DNA of 46,449 nt from positions 1-46,449 of the forward strand of contig JAHJML010000003.1 of assembly GCA_018821365.1 (NCBI GenBank), written 5' to 3'. The translations under genes were made by a program, and so were the position numbers. The notes under the pieces are model-generated. The model was not told where the DNA came from, searched no databases, and was given only the letters and a program-made list of their open reading frames with translations. How positions within the stretch are numbered: the stretch's first letter is position 1; each line of letters starts with the position of its first letter. Source of the DNA: Actinomycetota bacterium (GTDB lineage: Bacteria; Actinomycetota; Acidimicrobiia; Spongiisociales; UBA11373). Positions 11,334-33,417 of this stretch are shown piece after piece.

Positions 11334-11415
11334 GGGCCTGTCCTTGCCGGAGAGGGCGGCAGACACCAGGAGTCTGTATCGGCTCCTTCGGCGATTCCTT
11401 GAACCTCGCCGGATG

Positions 11416-11700
11416 TGTTCTCCCCCGCTTGCGGGGGAGACGCCCCCGCAGGGGGCAGAGGGTTACGAAGTGTTCTCCCCCGCTTGCGGGGGAGATGCCC
11501 CCGCAGGAGGCAGAGGGGGAGCACAAGCCTTCTGGTGGCGCGCCGTGTTCTCCCCCGCTTGCGGGGGAGATGCCCCCGCAGGGGGCAGAGGGAGAGCACA
11601 AGCCCCCTGGTAGCGCGCCGTGCGCGCCTCTGGATGAGCACCGCCCCCCTCTGGCCCCGGCCTGTTCGGCCGGGCCCATCTCCCCCGCTACGCGGGAGAG
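11416..11700. repeat. Hairpin-repeat array A (3' of glnA1)
   Basis: This fills most of the gap between the cyclase start and the glnA1 stop (11334-11711). A unit starting TGTTCTCCCCCGCTTGC occurs at 11416, 11471 and 11546. Each copy has a long hairpin, CTCCCCCG-CTTG-CGGGGGAG, then a second one, GCCCCC-GCA-GGGGGC. A related hairpin with a TACG centre lies at about 11677-11700, after a CCGGCC/GGCCGG hairpin. Short frames predicted through it are products of the repeat, not genes. The array sits just beyond the glnA1 stop and may act as its terminator or mRNA 3' stabiliser. Confidence 0.85.
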
Positions 11701-11711
11701 AGAAGAGCCGC

Positions 11712-28535: not shown

Positions 28536-28910
28536 CCTCTCTCCCGCGCAGCGGGGGAGATGGGTCCGGCCGAACAGGCCGGAGCCAGAGGGGGGCGGTT
28601 CTCTTCCAAAAGCACCCTCACCGCGCCACCCCCACCCCCTCTGCCCCTCCGGGGCATCTCCCCCGCCCCAGGGCGGGAGAGAAGGGAAAGCCGTCCGATG
28701 AGCGAGCCGGGCGGTCTTCCTCTCTCCCGCGCAGCGGGGGAGATGGGTCCGGCCGAACAGGCCGGAGCCAGAGGGGGCAGCCGGAGCCAGAGGGGGCAGC
28801 CGGGGCCAGGAGGGCACCCTCACCGCGCCACCCCCACCCCCTCTGCCCCTCCGGGGCATCTCCCCCGCCCCAGGGCGGGAGAGAAGGGAAAGCCGTCCGA
28901 TGAGCGAGCC
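28536..28910. repeat. Hairpin-repeat array B (between erpA-like and ridA genes)
   Basis: This fills the 462-bp gap 28459-28920. Two large copies start CCTCTCTCCCGCGCAGCGGG at 28536 and 28719. Each contains the hairpin CCGGCC-GAACA-GGCCGG. A 97-bp tail beginning GCACCCTCACCGCGCC occurs at 28612-28708 and again at 28814-28910, identical by eye, and contains CTCCCCCGCCC/GGGCGGGAG. A short tandem, GGAGCCAGAGGGGGCAGCC, is doubled at 28764-28801. It shares hairpins, some inverted, with arrays A and C. No gene is supported here. Confidence 0.85.
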
Positions 28911-29390: not shown

Positions 29391-30551
29391 GTGCCCCTGA
29401 TGCCCGAGACCACCACCCAGACCATCGAGTCCGCCCTGGGCGGGGTCCTCGACCCCGAACTCGGAGTCGACATCGTCGAGTTGGGCATGGTGCGCGGCAT
29501 CGAGATCGACGGGACCGCCGCCACCATCCACATCGCCCTCACCATCGCCGCCTGCCCACTCCGCACCCAGATCGAGGGCGATGTGGTCCGCAAGGTGATA
29601 GCCCTCCCCGGGATCGACTCGGTGGATGTGCAGGTGACGGCGATGACCGACCGGCAGCGCTCCGAGTTGATGGGCATCGCCCGGCGCAACGCTCGCGACA
29701 CCGCAGCGCCCACCATGGTCAACCCGATGACCCGGGTGATCGCCGTCGGCAGCGGCAAGGGCGGTGTCGGCAAGTCGTCGATCAGCGTCAACCTGGCGGT
29801 CGCCATCGCCGACACCGGCTACCGGGTGGGCCTGCTCGACGCCGACATCTGGGGGTTCTCCATCCCCCGCATGCTCGGCATCACCGGGCGGCGCCTCGAG
29901 GCAGGCGACGACCGCAAGATCGTTCCGATGCAGGCAGCCGGCATCCAGGTGGTCTCCACCGGGTTGATGCTCGACGACGAGCAGACCGCCCTCATGTGGA
30001 GGGGTCTGATGCTCTCCAAGGCCCTGGAGCAGTTCCTCCACGACGTCGCCTGGGACCGTGATCTGGACTACCTGGTCATCGACATGCCGCCCGGCACCGG
30101 CGACATCCAGATGGCGCTGGCCCGCCTGCTGCCGCAGGCCGAGATGGTGGTGGTCACCACCCCGCAGAAAGCGGCCCAGAAGGTCGCCGCCCGGGTGGCC
30201 GACATGGCCCGGCGCTCGTTCCTGCCGGTGGTGGGGGTGGTCGAGAACATGGCCGGGTTCACCACCGATGACGGCACCCACTACGACTTGTTCGGCAAGG
30301 GCGGCGGCGAGGAGTTGGCGGCCGAATTGGGGGTGCCGCTGATCGGGAGCATCCCCCTCGACCCCTTCGTGGTGGAGGGGGGCGACGACGGCGCCCCGGT
30401 GGTGAGGGCCCATCCCGACGCACCTTCGGCGCGGGCCGTCGCCGGGGTGGCCGCCCGGATCCTGGAACTGGTCCCCCCGGCCGCCGACGAGACCTGCACC
30501 GCTCGCATCGCCGTCCTCATGGAGCAACTGGGGCAGGACGCGGCCGGTTGA
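29391..30551 (+). CDS. mrp: Mrp/ApbC (NBP35-type) Fe-S carrier ATPase with N-terminal DUF59 domain
   Basis: A 386-residue protein. Residues 5-95 are a MIP18/DUF59 domain (LGGVLDPELGVDIVELGMV with IAACPLRTQIE). The rest is a deviant-Walker P-loop ATPase: GSGKGGVGKSSISVNLA, DADIWGFSIPRMLG, DYLVIDMPPGTGDIQMAL and VENMAGF. Such proteins bind and deliver Fe-S clusters in the cytoplasm. GTG 29391 is preceded by GGAG at a usual distance; ATG 29400 is in frame and possible. It is divergent from the ErpA-like gene with 110 bp between them. The gene ends before array C. Confidence 0.92.
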   Translation: MPLMPETTTQTIESALGGVLDPELGVDIVELGMVRGIEIDGTAATIHIALTIAACPLRTQIEGDVVRKVIALPGIDSVDVQVTAMTDRQRSELMGIARRNARDTAAPTMVNPMTRVIAVGSGKGGVGKSSISVNLAVAIADTGYRVGLLDADIWGFSIPRMLGITGRRLEAGDDRKIVPMQAAGIQVVSTGLMLDDEQTALMWRGLMLSKALEQFLHDVAWDRDLDYLVIDMPPGTGDIQMALARLLPQAEMVVVTTPQKAAQKVAARVADMARRSFLPVVGVVENMAGFTTDDGTHYDLFGKGGGEELAAELGVPLIGSIPLDPFVVEGGDDGAPVVRAHPDAPSARAVAGVAARILELVPPAADETCTARIAVLMEQLGQDAAG

Positions 30552-30644
30552 CGCTGCTCCGGCTGGTAGGAACCTCTTCCCCGCTGGTGGGGAGCGGTGC
30601 CAACACCGCATATGCGCGTCGAGGTCGTTGCTTCCTTATCTCCC

Positions 30645-31018
30645 CGCTCCAAGGGAGGAGCCCTCCCGGCGCCGTCAGGCTCCGGGAGGGAGGGGGGTGC
30701 TTCGACCAGGGTTCCCTACGCACCCCCTCCGCCTCGCTTCGCTCGGCACCTCCCCCTTGAGGGGGAGGAAAAGAATGGGTGGATGCTCTCGTGCGAGGAT
30801 GCCCCCGCTGTCGCCTTCGGCGACATCTCCCCCGTGCCGCGCCACCAGAGCGTCTGCTCTCCCCCTCTGTCGCCTCCGGCGACATCTCCCCCGCAAGCGG
30901 GGGAGAACACGACCTCCCCCTCTGTCGCCATGGGCGACATCTCCCCCGCTACGCGGGGGAGAACACGACCTCCCCCTCTGTCGCCATGGGCGACATCTCC
31001 CCCGCTTCGCGGGGGAGA
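30645..31018. repeat. Hairpin-repeat array C (between mrp and an M23 gene)
   Basis: This occupies most of the 471-bp convergent gap 30552-31022. The right half is a regular tandem: CCCCCTCTGTCGCC at 30861, 30916 and 30972 (period 55-56 bp), with a partial copy near 30801. Each unit has hairpin TGTCGCC-nnn(n)-GGCGACA then CTCCCCCGC-centre-GCGGGGGAG; the centre gives TACG, TTCG or a CAAG variant. The left half has other hairpins: CCCTCCCGG/CCGGGAGGG (30661-30690) and CCTCCCCC-TTGA-GGGGGAGG (30749-30768). It is related to arrays A and B. Confidence 0.87.
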
Positions 31019-31022
31019 ACCT

Positions 31023-32120
31023 CTATCTACAGAGTTTGACCATCAACTGGTAGGGGTTGGTGAGCGGGCCGCCGCCGGGTTGGTAGCCGAGGTGGAGGTG
31101 GGGGGTGCCGGTGGCATTGCCGGTATCACCCACATACCCGATGAGTTGCCCCCTGTCGACCCGCAGTCCCTGCTGCAGGCCGGACGCAAACGCCGAGAGG
31201 TGGGCGTAGTAGTAGATGTCCCCGGAATTACCCCTGACGTAGATGCCGAGGCCGCCCAGGTAGTGGGACGACATCGACCAGATGTACCCGCTCTCGGCGG
31301 CCACCAGTGGCGTGCCCATCGCCGCGATCATGTCGACGCCGTGGTGCTGGCGTCCCCCGGAGCGGGGTTCCAGCCAGGAGTCGCGGAAGGAGTTCGCTCC
31401 GGCCACCGGGCAGGTCCTGCCGGCCGGCGACACGTGGCCGCTGGAGGAGTGGTTGGAGGCAGCCGCCGCCGCAGCCGACGCCGCCGCCGCGGCTCGCTGT
31501 CGCTCGGCCTCCTCACGGGCGCGACGCTCGGCCTCCTGCTTCTCCCACTGCTGGTAGACCACCTGATACTCGTTGTTGGCGATCTCCAATTCGGCATAGA
31601 TCTCGGCCGAGGAGTCCTGGAGCCGTAGGGTCTCGTCGGCCTGCTCGGCGACCAGGCGCTCCAACTCCGCCTCCAGTCGCTTCGAATCGTTCTGGAGAAA
31701 GAGCAGGTCGTTGACCACATCACGCTGCTGGCCGGACAGGCTGTCGAGGTAGGCGGATCGGGCTCCCACCTGGGAGATGTCCTGCACGTTGAACAGCGAG
31801 TCCTGGCTGCTGCCGCCGGCGTTCATGTACATCGCGCTGGCGCGTTCCTTGGCCTGGAGTTCCATGATGACGAGTTCGCGCTGCCGGTCGAGCAACTTCT
31901 GCTCGATGGCGTGGATCCGCTCCTCGTAGGAGGCCTGCATCCCGATCGATTGGTCGAGTTCGGTGAGCCTTCCCTCGAGGCGGCGGGACACCTCGCGGAC
32001 CTTCTCCTGAGCGGCATCGAGTTCCGCCCGCGTGACATCGGCCAGTGCCGTCGCCGGTGTCAAGGCGACGATGCCGACGGCAATCACCAAGGCGAGCGCC
32101 TTACGCAGGGTGCGTCGCAT
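31023..32120 (-). CDS. Coiled-coil M23 peptidoglycan hydrolase
   Basis: A 365-residue secreted protein: signal peptide 1-27 (ending ALA), then a long coiled coil (about 30-215), rich in Glu, Gln and Arg with heptads, an Ala/Ser linker, and an M23 domain from about 245. Catalytic motifs are HHGVDMIAAMGTP (first His and Asp), YYAHLSAFA and the HxH motif TPHLHLGY, all intact. The layout is that of EnvC/RipA-side factors, in which a coiled coil controls or positions the LytM domain at the divisome or cell wall. It is a paralogue of the next gene upstream (32164-33417), 43 bp away, same strand. The stop lies five bases from array C. Confidence 0.88.
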   Translation of the reverse strand: MRRTLRKALALVIAVGIVALTPATALADVTRAELDAAQEKVREVSRRLEGRLTELDQSIGMQASYEERIHAIEQKLLDRQRELVIMELQAKERASAMYMNAGGSSQDSLFNVQDISQVGARSAYLDSLSGQQRDVVNDLLFLQNDSKRLEAELERLVAEQADETLRLQDSSAEIYAELEIANNEYQVVYQQWEKQEAERRAREEAERQRAAAAASAAAAAASNHSSSGHVSPAGRTCPVAGANSFRDSWLEPRSGGRQHHGVDMIAAMGTPLVAAESGYIWSMSSHYLGGLGIYVRGNSGDIYYYAHLSAFASGLQQGLRVDRGQLIGYVGDTGNATGTPHLHLGYQPGGGPLTNPYQLMVKLCR

Positions 32121-32163: not shown

Positions 32164-33417
32164 TCAGCAGAGTTGCCGGACGATCGGGTAGGGGTTGGCG
32201 TAGTAGGCGCCGCCCGGCAGGTAGCCGAGGTGCAGGTGGGGGATGCTGGCGTTGCCGGTCATGCCGACGTAGCCGACCAACTGCCCGGCGCTGAGCCGCA
32301 CCCCGGTCCTGATGCCCGAGGCGTACGAATTCAGGTGGGCGTAGTACCACCGGTCTCCGCTATCGCCCTGGATGTAGAGGCCGTTCCCCCCCGCGTAGTG
32401 CCACGACATGTACCAGATGTAGCCGTCCTCGATCGCCACCAGCGGTGTTCCCGTGACCGCCACCATGTCGGTCCCGGTGTGGCTACGGCCGCCGGGCCGG
32501 GGCTCTCCCCAGGTGTCGGAGAAGGTCACGGCCCCGTCCACCGGACACACCCTGACGCCGGGATTGGGCGGCAGGGTGGTCGTGGTCGTGCTCGGCGGGG
32601 CGGTGGTGGTCGTCGCTCCCGGTTCGGTCGTGGTGGTAGCACCGGGTTCGGTCGTGGTGGTCGTCGCTCCCGGTTCGGTCGTGGTGGTAGCGCCCGGTTC
32701 GGTCGTGGTGGTCGTCGCTCCCGGCTCGGTCGTAGTGGTAGCGCCCGGTTCGGTCGTGGTCGTCGAAGGCGCCAGGGTCGTGGTGGTGGATGTCGCCAGC
32801 CACTCCTGGTACCTCCGCTCCTCCTCCTGCTGGTCCCACTGCTGTTTGACCGCCTGGTACTCGGTGTTGGCGGCCTCCAACTGGGCGTAGATGTCCCCGA
32901 GGAGACTCTCCATCTCCTGGCGAACCACCTCCTGTTCGGCCACCGTCTCCTCCAGCAATGCCTGCTGGCGTTCGTAGCCGAGGCGGGCGGCGTCCAGTTG
33001 GACGACCACCTCCCGATCGGATTGAGCTACCGAGTCGAGGTAGGCCTTGCGGGCGGGCAACTCGGAGAACTCGCCGGCGGCGAGCACCCGCTTGTCGTCG
33101 GCGGCGCCGGCGATCATGTACATCTCGGCGACCCGGTCGTGGGCCGTCCGGCGGGCGAGCGCCAGTTCCCGCTCCCGGGTGGCGAGATCCACGACGATCC
33201 GATCCAATCGATCCTTCAACTCCACCTCGCGCACCACGGCGGCGTCGTAACCGGCCACCTGCTCCGAGAGGCGGTCGTTGACCTCCCGGAGGCGGGCCCT
33301 GGCCTCCTCGACCTGCTGGGAGGTGACATCGGCGAAAGCGGGCAGCGTCACGAAGAGCAGGCCTGCCGCCATGGCGGTGACGACCAGCAGTAGGGCGGCC
33401 CGTCGTCTCCTCATCAC
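32164..33417 (-). CDS. Coiled-coil M23 peptidoglycan hydrolase with TTTTEPGA repeats
   Basis: A 417-residue paralogue of the downstream gene. Signal peptide about 1-29 (ending PAFA), coiled coil about 30-210, a low-complexity stalk of repeated TTTTEPGA, then an M23 domain from about 300 with HTGTDMVAVTGTP, WYYAHLNSYA and the HxH motif IPHLHLGY. Zinc ligands are present. The stalk is encoded by three 51-bp DNA copies (see the separate repeat entry), so its length may vary between strains. The start ATG overlaps the stop of the MBL gene (ATGA), so it is translated from the same mRNA as the Nudix and MBL genes. Confidence 0.88.
   Translation of the reverse strand: MMRRRRAALLLVVTAMAAGLLFVTLPAFADVTSQQVEEARARLREVNDRLSEQVAGYDAAVVREVELKDRLDRIVVDLATRERELALARRTAHDRVAEMYMIAGAADDKRVLAAGEFSELPARKAYLDSVAQSDREVVVQLDAARLGYERQQALLEETVAEQEVVRQEMESLLGDIYAQLEAANTEYQAVKQQWDQQEEERRYQEWLATSTTTTLAPSTTTTEPGATTTTEPGATTTTTEPGATTTTEPGATTTTTEPGATTTTEPGATTTTAPPSTTTTTLPPNPGVRVCPVDGAVTFSDTWGEPRPGGRSHTGTDMVAVTGTPLVAIEDGYIWYMSWHYAGGNGLYIQGDSGDRWYYAHLNSYASGIRTGVRLSAGQLVGYVGMTGNASIPHLHLGYLPGGAYYANPYPIVRQLC
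32611..32763. repeat. 51-bp tandem repeat coding for a Thr-rich stalk
   Basis: The phrase CGTCGCTCCCGG recurs at 32611, 32662 and 32713, giving three 51-bp units inside the M23 gene. Each codes for 17 residues, TTTTTEPGATTTTEPGA, on the minus strand. Confidence 0.85.

Follow-up and report, generated by a model that had tools for sequence, protein, structure and literature searches.

Introduction

Short palindromes repeated between genes are known from bacteria as REP/BIME sequences, and the described superfamilies are recognised by small tags beside the hairpin. GTAG-superfamily REPs carry the tetranucleotide GTAG or GTGG 0–2 nt 5′ of the hairpin foot (PMC6006769), and those of the CGTC superfamily have a CGTC, TGTC or CCTC tag, an 8–9 bp stem starting with two A-T pairs, a 4–5 nt loop and a CCA tail (PMC3733652). 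For the latter, the spread of palindromic repeats without a RAYT transposase was stated as an open point, and Di Nocera et al. took the position of REPs near stop codons as a sign of transcription (PMC3733652). Rhizobia have an intergenic repeat named RIME (PMC2573895). Two other systems also come close: the whalefall-1 RNA (RF01762; PMC2864571), with two consecutive hairpins, and the extraordinarily stable DNA mini-hairpins, in which a GNA or GNNA loop sits on G-C pairs (PMC4686876).

We analysed a window of 46,449 nucleotides from an Actinomycetota genome (contig JAHJML010000003.1), in which the spacer between two convergent genes holds an array of two-hairpin units. The array is probably a REP/BIME-like, non-autonomous palindromic interspersed repeat that is kept as a DNA hairpin and was amplified locally in tandem.

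Results

The array in the mrp–M23 spacer

The array extends over 30802-31020 and consists of a two-hairpin unit (hp1, hp2) in four copies, one of them truncated. Its parts and neighbours are the following:

29391..30551, plus strand: mrp-like P-loop ATPase gene, the left convergent neighbour (from reading of the translation; orthologues adjoin the M23 gene in relatives)
30802..30834, plus strand: copy 1, truncated; CCCCCGC, hp1 at 30809-30825 (loop TTC, GAA on the minus strand) and the left arm only of hp2
30838..30910, plus strand: copy 2, a complete family-A unit, 95% to the family query; head CGCGCCACCAGAGCGTCTGCT, then CTCCCCCTC, tail AACAC; hp1 at 30868-30884 (loop TCC), hp2 at 30885-30906 (loop CAAG)
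30914..30966, plus strand: copy 3, a headless unit; hp1 at 30923-30939 (loop ATG), hp2 at 30940-30962 (loop TAC, GTA on the minus strand)
30970..31020, plus strand: copy 4, a headless unit; hp1 at 30979-30995 (loop ATG), hp2 at 30996-31018 (loop TTC, minus strand GCGAAGC)
31023..32120, minus strand: M23-type peptidase gene, the right convergent neighbour (from reading of the translation), with its stop TAG at 31023-31025

Direct-repeat copies start at 30802, 30861, 30916 and 30972 (spacings 59, 55 and 56), and TRF reports a period of 56 with 2.9 copies and a 94% match over 30859-31020, which confirms the regular two-hairpin units that the original prediction had placed at 30861, 30916 and 30972. 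The core pattern has seven matches in the window and none in window shuffles (0 expected). The predicted unit length of 55–56 bp holds as a local period, but a complete family-A unit measures about 73 bp, including a 21-nt CGCGCCACCAGAGGGCCTGCG head, and the shorter period is a local variant without that head. Copies 3 and 4, both headless, differ from each other by one loop base.

The prediction that stems are kept and loops vary is borne out. In the three full units, the stems are identical (hp1 TGTCGCC/GGCGACA; hp2 TCTCCCCCGC/GCGGGGGAGA) and the hp2 loops are CAAG, TAC and TTC; hp1 loops read TTC, TCC, ATG and ATG from copy 1 to copy 4. Copy 1 retains hp1 and lacks the right arm of hp2. The loop types, however, had been misread: TACG and TTCG closed by C-G were taken for UNCG tetraloops, but RNA and DNA fold predictions alike pair the full hp2 stem and leave a 3-nt loop (or CAAG). 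When all 10 bp of the stem form, the G of “TACG/TTCG” is itself base-paired, with the C just before it; a C(UUCG)G loop could arise only in a shifted register, at the cost of the stem. We reject UNCG tetraloops in the array.

The spacer is convergent, as predicted, and spans 471 bp; the final hairpin ends at 31018, 4 nt ahead of the minus-strand TAG of the M23 gene. The same spacer contains two more palindromic repeats within 30656-30770, CCCTCCCGGCGCC... at 30661-30690 and CACCCCCTCCGCCTCGCTTCGCTCGGCACCTCCCCCTTGAGGGGGAGG at about 30719-30768. A 51-bp tandem repeat (32569-32799) lies within a second M23-type gene (32164-33417, minus strand), where it encodes a TTTTEPGATTTT linker.

A dispersed family with sharp ends

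The core, CCCTCTG followed by hp1 and CATCTCCC, occurs in 78 copies in the window's own genome (reversed control 0), and this is a lower bound, since many copies lie at contig ends. BLAST with the 60-nt unit as query gives 89 matches in the genome, and the full unit gives 31. Aligned complete copies yield the family-A consensus CGCGCCACCAGAGGGCCTGCG-CTCCCCCTC-TGYCNCC nnn GGNGRCA-T-CTCCCCCGC aa GCGGGGGAG-ARCAC. The unit has sharp ends: in 28 copies, information content is high from about GCGCGCC as far as ARCAC, and on either side conservation drops to background. At other loci, arrays have periods of about 75 bp or 57–58 bp. Families B, C and D are related units with other stems, and they are directly observed with family A in inverted, BIME-like mosaic clusters. 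Further family loci in the window are:

11410..11618, minus strand: second family-A array, three copies at spacings of about 75 and 55 bp
about 11622-11707, in opposite orientation to that array: family-C/D unit beside it
28604..28905, plus strand: sister family-B and -C units with the same core and different stems, two direct copies 202 bp apart

A 19-bp tandem repeat (28761-28814) lies within the last of these loci.

In a 246-genome sample of the phylum, the strict core was found in the window's own genome only. A scan of the GTDB collection gave no match to the strict 7-bp core; a looser core matches at least 118 stretches there, in records of Rhizobiales, Chloroflexi, Anaerolineales, Bacteroidales, Gramella, Gillisia, Phycisphaerae and Clostridia. 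In Mesorhizobium and relatives, the core takes the form CCCCCTCTG, hp1, CATCTCCCCC and hp2, often in inverted pairs about 122 bp apart; a single Mesorhizobium genome accounts for more than 200 core matches. The Rhizobiales loci of the scan (L050-L167) are mostly inverted pairs, as in L050 (2445 plus, 2569 minus), and some genomes hold more than 100 copies. The rhizobial copies, which have the same core as the units described here, are possible counterparts of intergenic repeats such as RIME; their head, tail and hp2 loop differ from those of our units. Phage records gave no match to the element, on which ground a phage origin is rejected, and plasmid matches are confined to short stretches of Neorhizobium records.

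Gene context and orthologous spacers

Gene context was read with a home-made, hexamer-based gene finder run on retrieved stretches of the genome. Among 28 clusters with both neighbours, 12 lie in convergent, 16 in tandem and none in divergent spacers, against 30, 118 and 32 for all spacers of the same DNA; a bias towards gene 3′ ends is therefore directly observed. The elements have no clear preference for either orientation with respect to the genes beside them.

Relatives of the same family retain the convergent mrp-M23 pair. In four related genera (G002, G004, G005 and G008), the spacer is tens of bases long and has no array, and in G003, G007 and G009 it holds other, unrelated sequence. 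The array is missing from these orthologous spacers and so is not ancestral to the gene pair. Divergence of the relatives (74% identity for the protein from the same genus) is too great for an exact empty site or a target duplication to be seen. In the same-genus genome G001 (L177 1-65, G001:C53), the contig ends 65 bp past the M23 stop in a different repeat, CGCCACCCCAGGGTGACG, which likewise occurs close to arrays in the window's genome. Repeats seem to be drawn to the mrp-M23 spacer.

Stems covary across copies and phyla

The original prediction would have fallen if stem positions mutated without compensation across copies. Within the genome, 27 distinct copies have 99.1% of pair cells standard, versus 94.5% after shuffling and 50–63% with partners slid; three pairs changed on both sides, which go back to a small number of events, namely two hp1 subfamilies and a single hp2 change. 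Across several phyla, 34 distinct 7-bp hp1 sequences are 96.2% paired, versus 81.0% shuffled and 21–59% slid. The third hp1 pair, left free by the search pattern, is complementary in 96.6% of 176 matches. One Chloroflexi genome has 69 copies, and the 15 distinct hp1 sequences listed from it are all perfectly paired, with six stems. The stems covary across copies and across phyla, and hence the structure is maintained. In one genome of genus g12 (G016), many hp1 sequences are TGCCTCGAAGACTCGGCA, with the inner three bases unpaired, beside paired versions TGCCGAGAGGACTCGGCA; the former looks like an inversion of the inner arm.

Constraint on a DNA or an RNA hairpin

On the G-rich strand, distinct hp1 triloops follow GNA in 40 of 57 cases with a free middle base (A 15, T 9, C 9, G 7), their closing pair is C-G in 54 of 57, and distinct hp1 tetraloops follow GNNA in 26 of 36. 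RNA-type loops are scarce among the same 36 tetraloops (six GNRA, no UNCG). Hairpins with 3-nt loops in the same genome have GNA/TNC loops in 18 of 22 family cases versus 42 of 266 in coding regions, and G-T-type and A-C-type stem mismatches are about equal. The parity of mismatches gives no hint that G-U pairs are tolerated on one transcribed strand. The p-values for loops and mismatches are inflated and indicative only, as distinct sequences are not phylogenetically independent. In copies 3 and 4, the hp1 loop ATG departs from the GN(N)A rule, as does CAAG, the commonest hp2 loop.

In the family and its relatives, hp1 has the features of the stable DNA mini-hairpins: a GNA or GNNA loop, C-G closing and at least two G-C pairs. 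On the minus strand, hp2 reads GCGTAGC in copy 3 and GCGAAGC in copy 4, resembling the d(GCGAAGC) mini-hairpin (PMC4686876), and C-G-closed GN(N)A loops recur in hp1 across phyla. Those mini-hairpins were synthetic oligonucleotides, whereas here the rule is read from the sequence of a natural repeat family.

The selection on RNA structure that the original prediction proposed is upheld as regards a maintained structure, but its RNA level is unsupported. A structured RNA, with the array transcribed in the 3′ UTR of mrp and/or M23 and the hairpins terminating transcription, stabilising 3′ ends or binding protein, is in our judgement unlikely. It would fit the covarying stems, the prediction of strong RNA folds for both strands (z −10.7 and −5.8) and the position near stop codons in convergent and tandem spacers. 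Against it stand GN(N)A loops that are neither UNCG nor GNRA, the lack of a G-U excess over A-C, the lack of a clear strand or orientation preference and the orthologous spacers without the array. A search of 30500-31100 for a G+C-rich hairpin with a U-tract found none, and an intrinsic (Rho-independent) terminator is rejected. For the constraint on the hairpins, single-stranded DNA is a better explanation than RNA; a secondary effect on the mrp and M23 transcripts is possible.

A neutral origin we regard as rather improbable. Hairpin-templated repair (template switching) may keep GC-rich palindromes perfect and make compensated changes in one step, such that selection is not needed, with slippage expanding the array. 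Compensated changes with few intermediates (C-G to G-C, for example) and the high similarity of the tandem copies agree with this. It does not, however, predict fixed loop ends around a free middle base, sharp element ends, 3′-end placement or CCCTCTG...CATCTCCC flanks that are shared by several phyla.

Mobilisers and known systems

No Y1 transposase (IS200/RAYT; PF01797) was found in the window's own genome or in 58 relatives (0 of 59 genomes of the order), in searches whose positive controls matched in E. coli and others. No TnpB zinc-ribbon domain was found in this genome, and both RAYT/Y1 and TnpB zinc-ribbon (IS200/IS605) mobilisers are rejected. Among 13 distant genomes that bear the core, six have a Y1_Tnp match, so Y1 does not track the element.

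In the broad sense, the repeat resembles REP/BIME (Di Nocera et al. 2013, PMC3733652): many short, extragenic palindromic copies, mosaics of inverted units, a preference for gene 3′ ends (convergent and tandem spacers, close to stop codons), and variable stems and loops. It differs in its two-hairpin unit with C-tracts, the lack of a GTAG or CGTC tag as described, GN(N)A loops and an order without Y1 transposase. A GTAG/GTGG tag is absent on both strands, the flanks of hp1 and hp2 being CCTC, CGACA, GGAGA and GTGTT. Compared with CGTC REPs, CCTC does precede hp1, but its 7-bp stem opens with T-A and G-C, its loop measures 3 nt and its tail reads TCTC. A canonical GTAG/CGTC REP mobilised by a RAYT (TnpA-REP) missing from the assembly would account for clusters of extragenic palindromes, arranged as mosaics at gene 3′ ends, and for CCTC, a reported CGTC-tag variant, ahead of hp1, but it is very improbable given the absent GTAG/GTGG tag, the dissimilar stem start, loop length and tail, and a Y1_Tnp absent from 59 of 59 genomes, our own being 99% complete.

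The array also resembles the whalefall-1 RNA in its two consecutive hairpins, the first with a C-rich/G-rich stem, followed by a GGGNGAGG tail, and in copies 3 and 4 it is the minus strand that aligns with the model. Membership is rejected at 19.7–20.3 bits (19.7–19.9 for copies 3 and 4) versus a gathering score of 37. The top score, 20.3 bits, belongs to the palindrome at about 30719-30768, the minus strand of which also has GCGAAGC. Whalefall-1 was the sole Rfam match, below threshold; six further loci, at E up to 0.5, gave nothing relevant. A CRISPR array is likewise rejected: what varies here are loops within the repeat itself, and the CRISPR-DR10 match reaches 12.8 bits versus 39. Searching the literature by sequence string yielded unrelated papers only.

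Discussion

The element is a REP/BIME-like interspersed repeat, of a variant without the known tags or transposase. We suggest that a discrete unit, about 73 bp long and made up of head, C-tract, hp1, C-tract and hp2, was copied into many 3′-flanking intergenic spacers, and that one such unit would have been inserted between the convergent mrp and M23 genes and then duplicated in tandem on the spot. We infer that recognition or propagation as a single-stranded DNA hairpin is what preserves the element's stems and loops, with single-stranded DNA transposition, replication-fork hairpins and cruciforms as candidate routes. A role as a two-way transcription barrier or as a protector of 3′ ends would be secondary, if any.

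Much more tentatively, and with some doubt on our side, the units may belong to an as yet unnamed class of interspersed repeats of the form CCCCCTCTG, hp1, CATCTCCCCC, hp2, with free stems and GN(N)A loops, which would spread as single-stranded DNA hairpins without a resident Y1 and include at least Alphaproteobacteria, Chloroflexi, Bacteroidota, Planctomycetes (Phycisphaerae), Clostridia and the present phylum.

Covariation in a repeat need not imply a functional RNA, and this calls for caution wherever repeats are read in that way. With a core found in several phyla and a loop rule by which constraint on DNA hairpins can be told from constraint on RNA hairpins, the question “DNA or RNA?” becomes testable from sequence alone.
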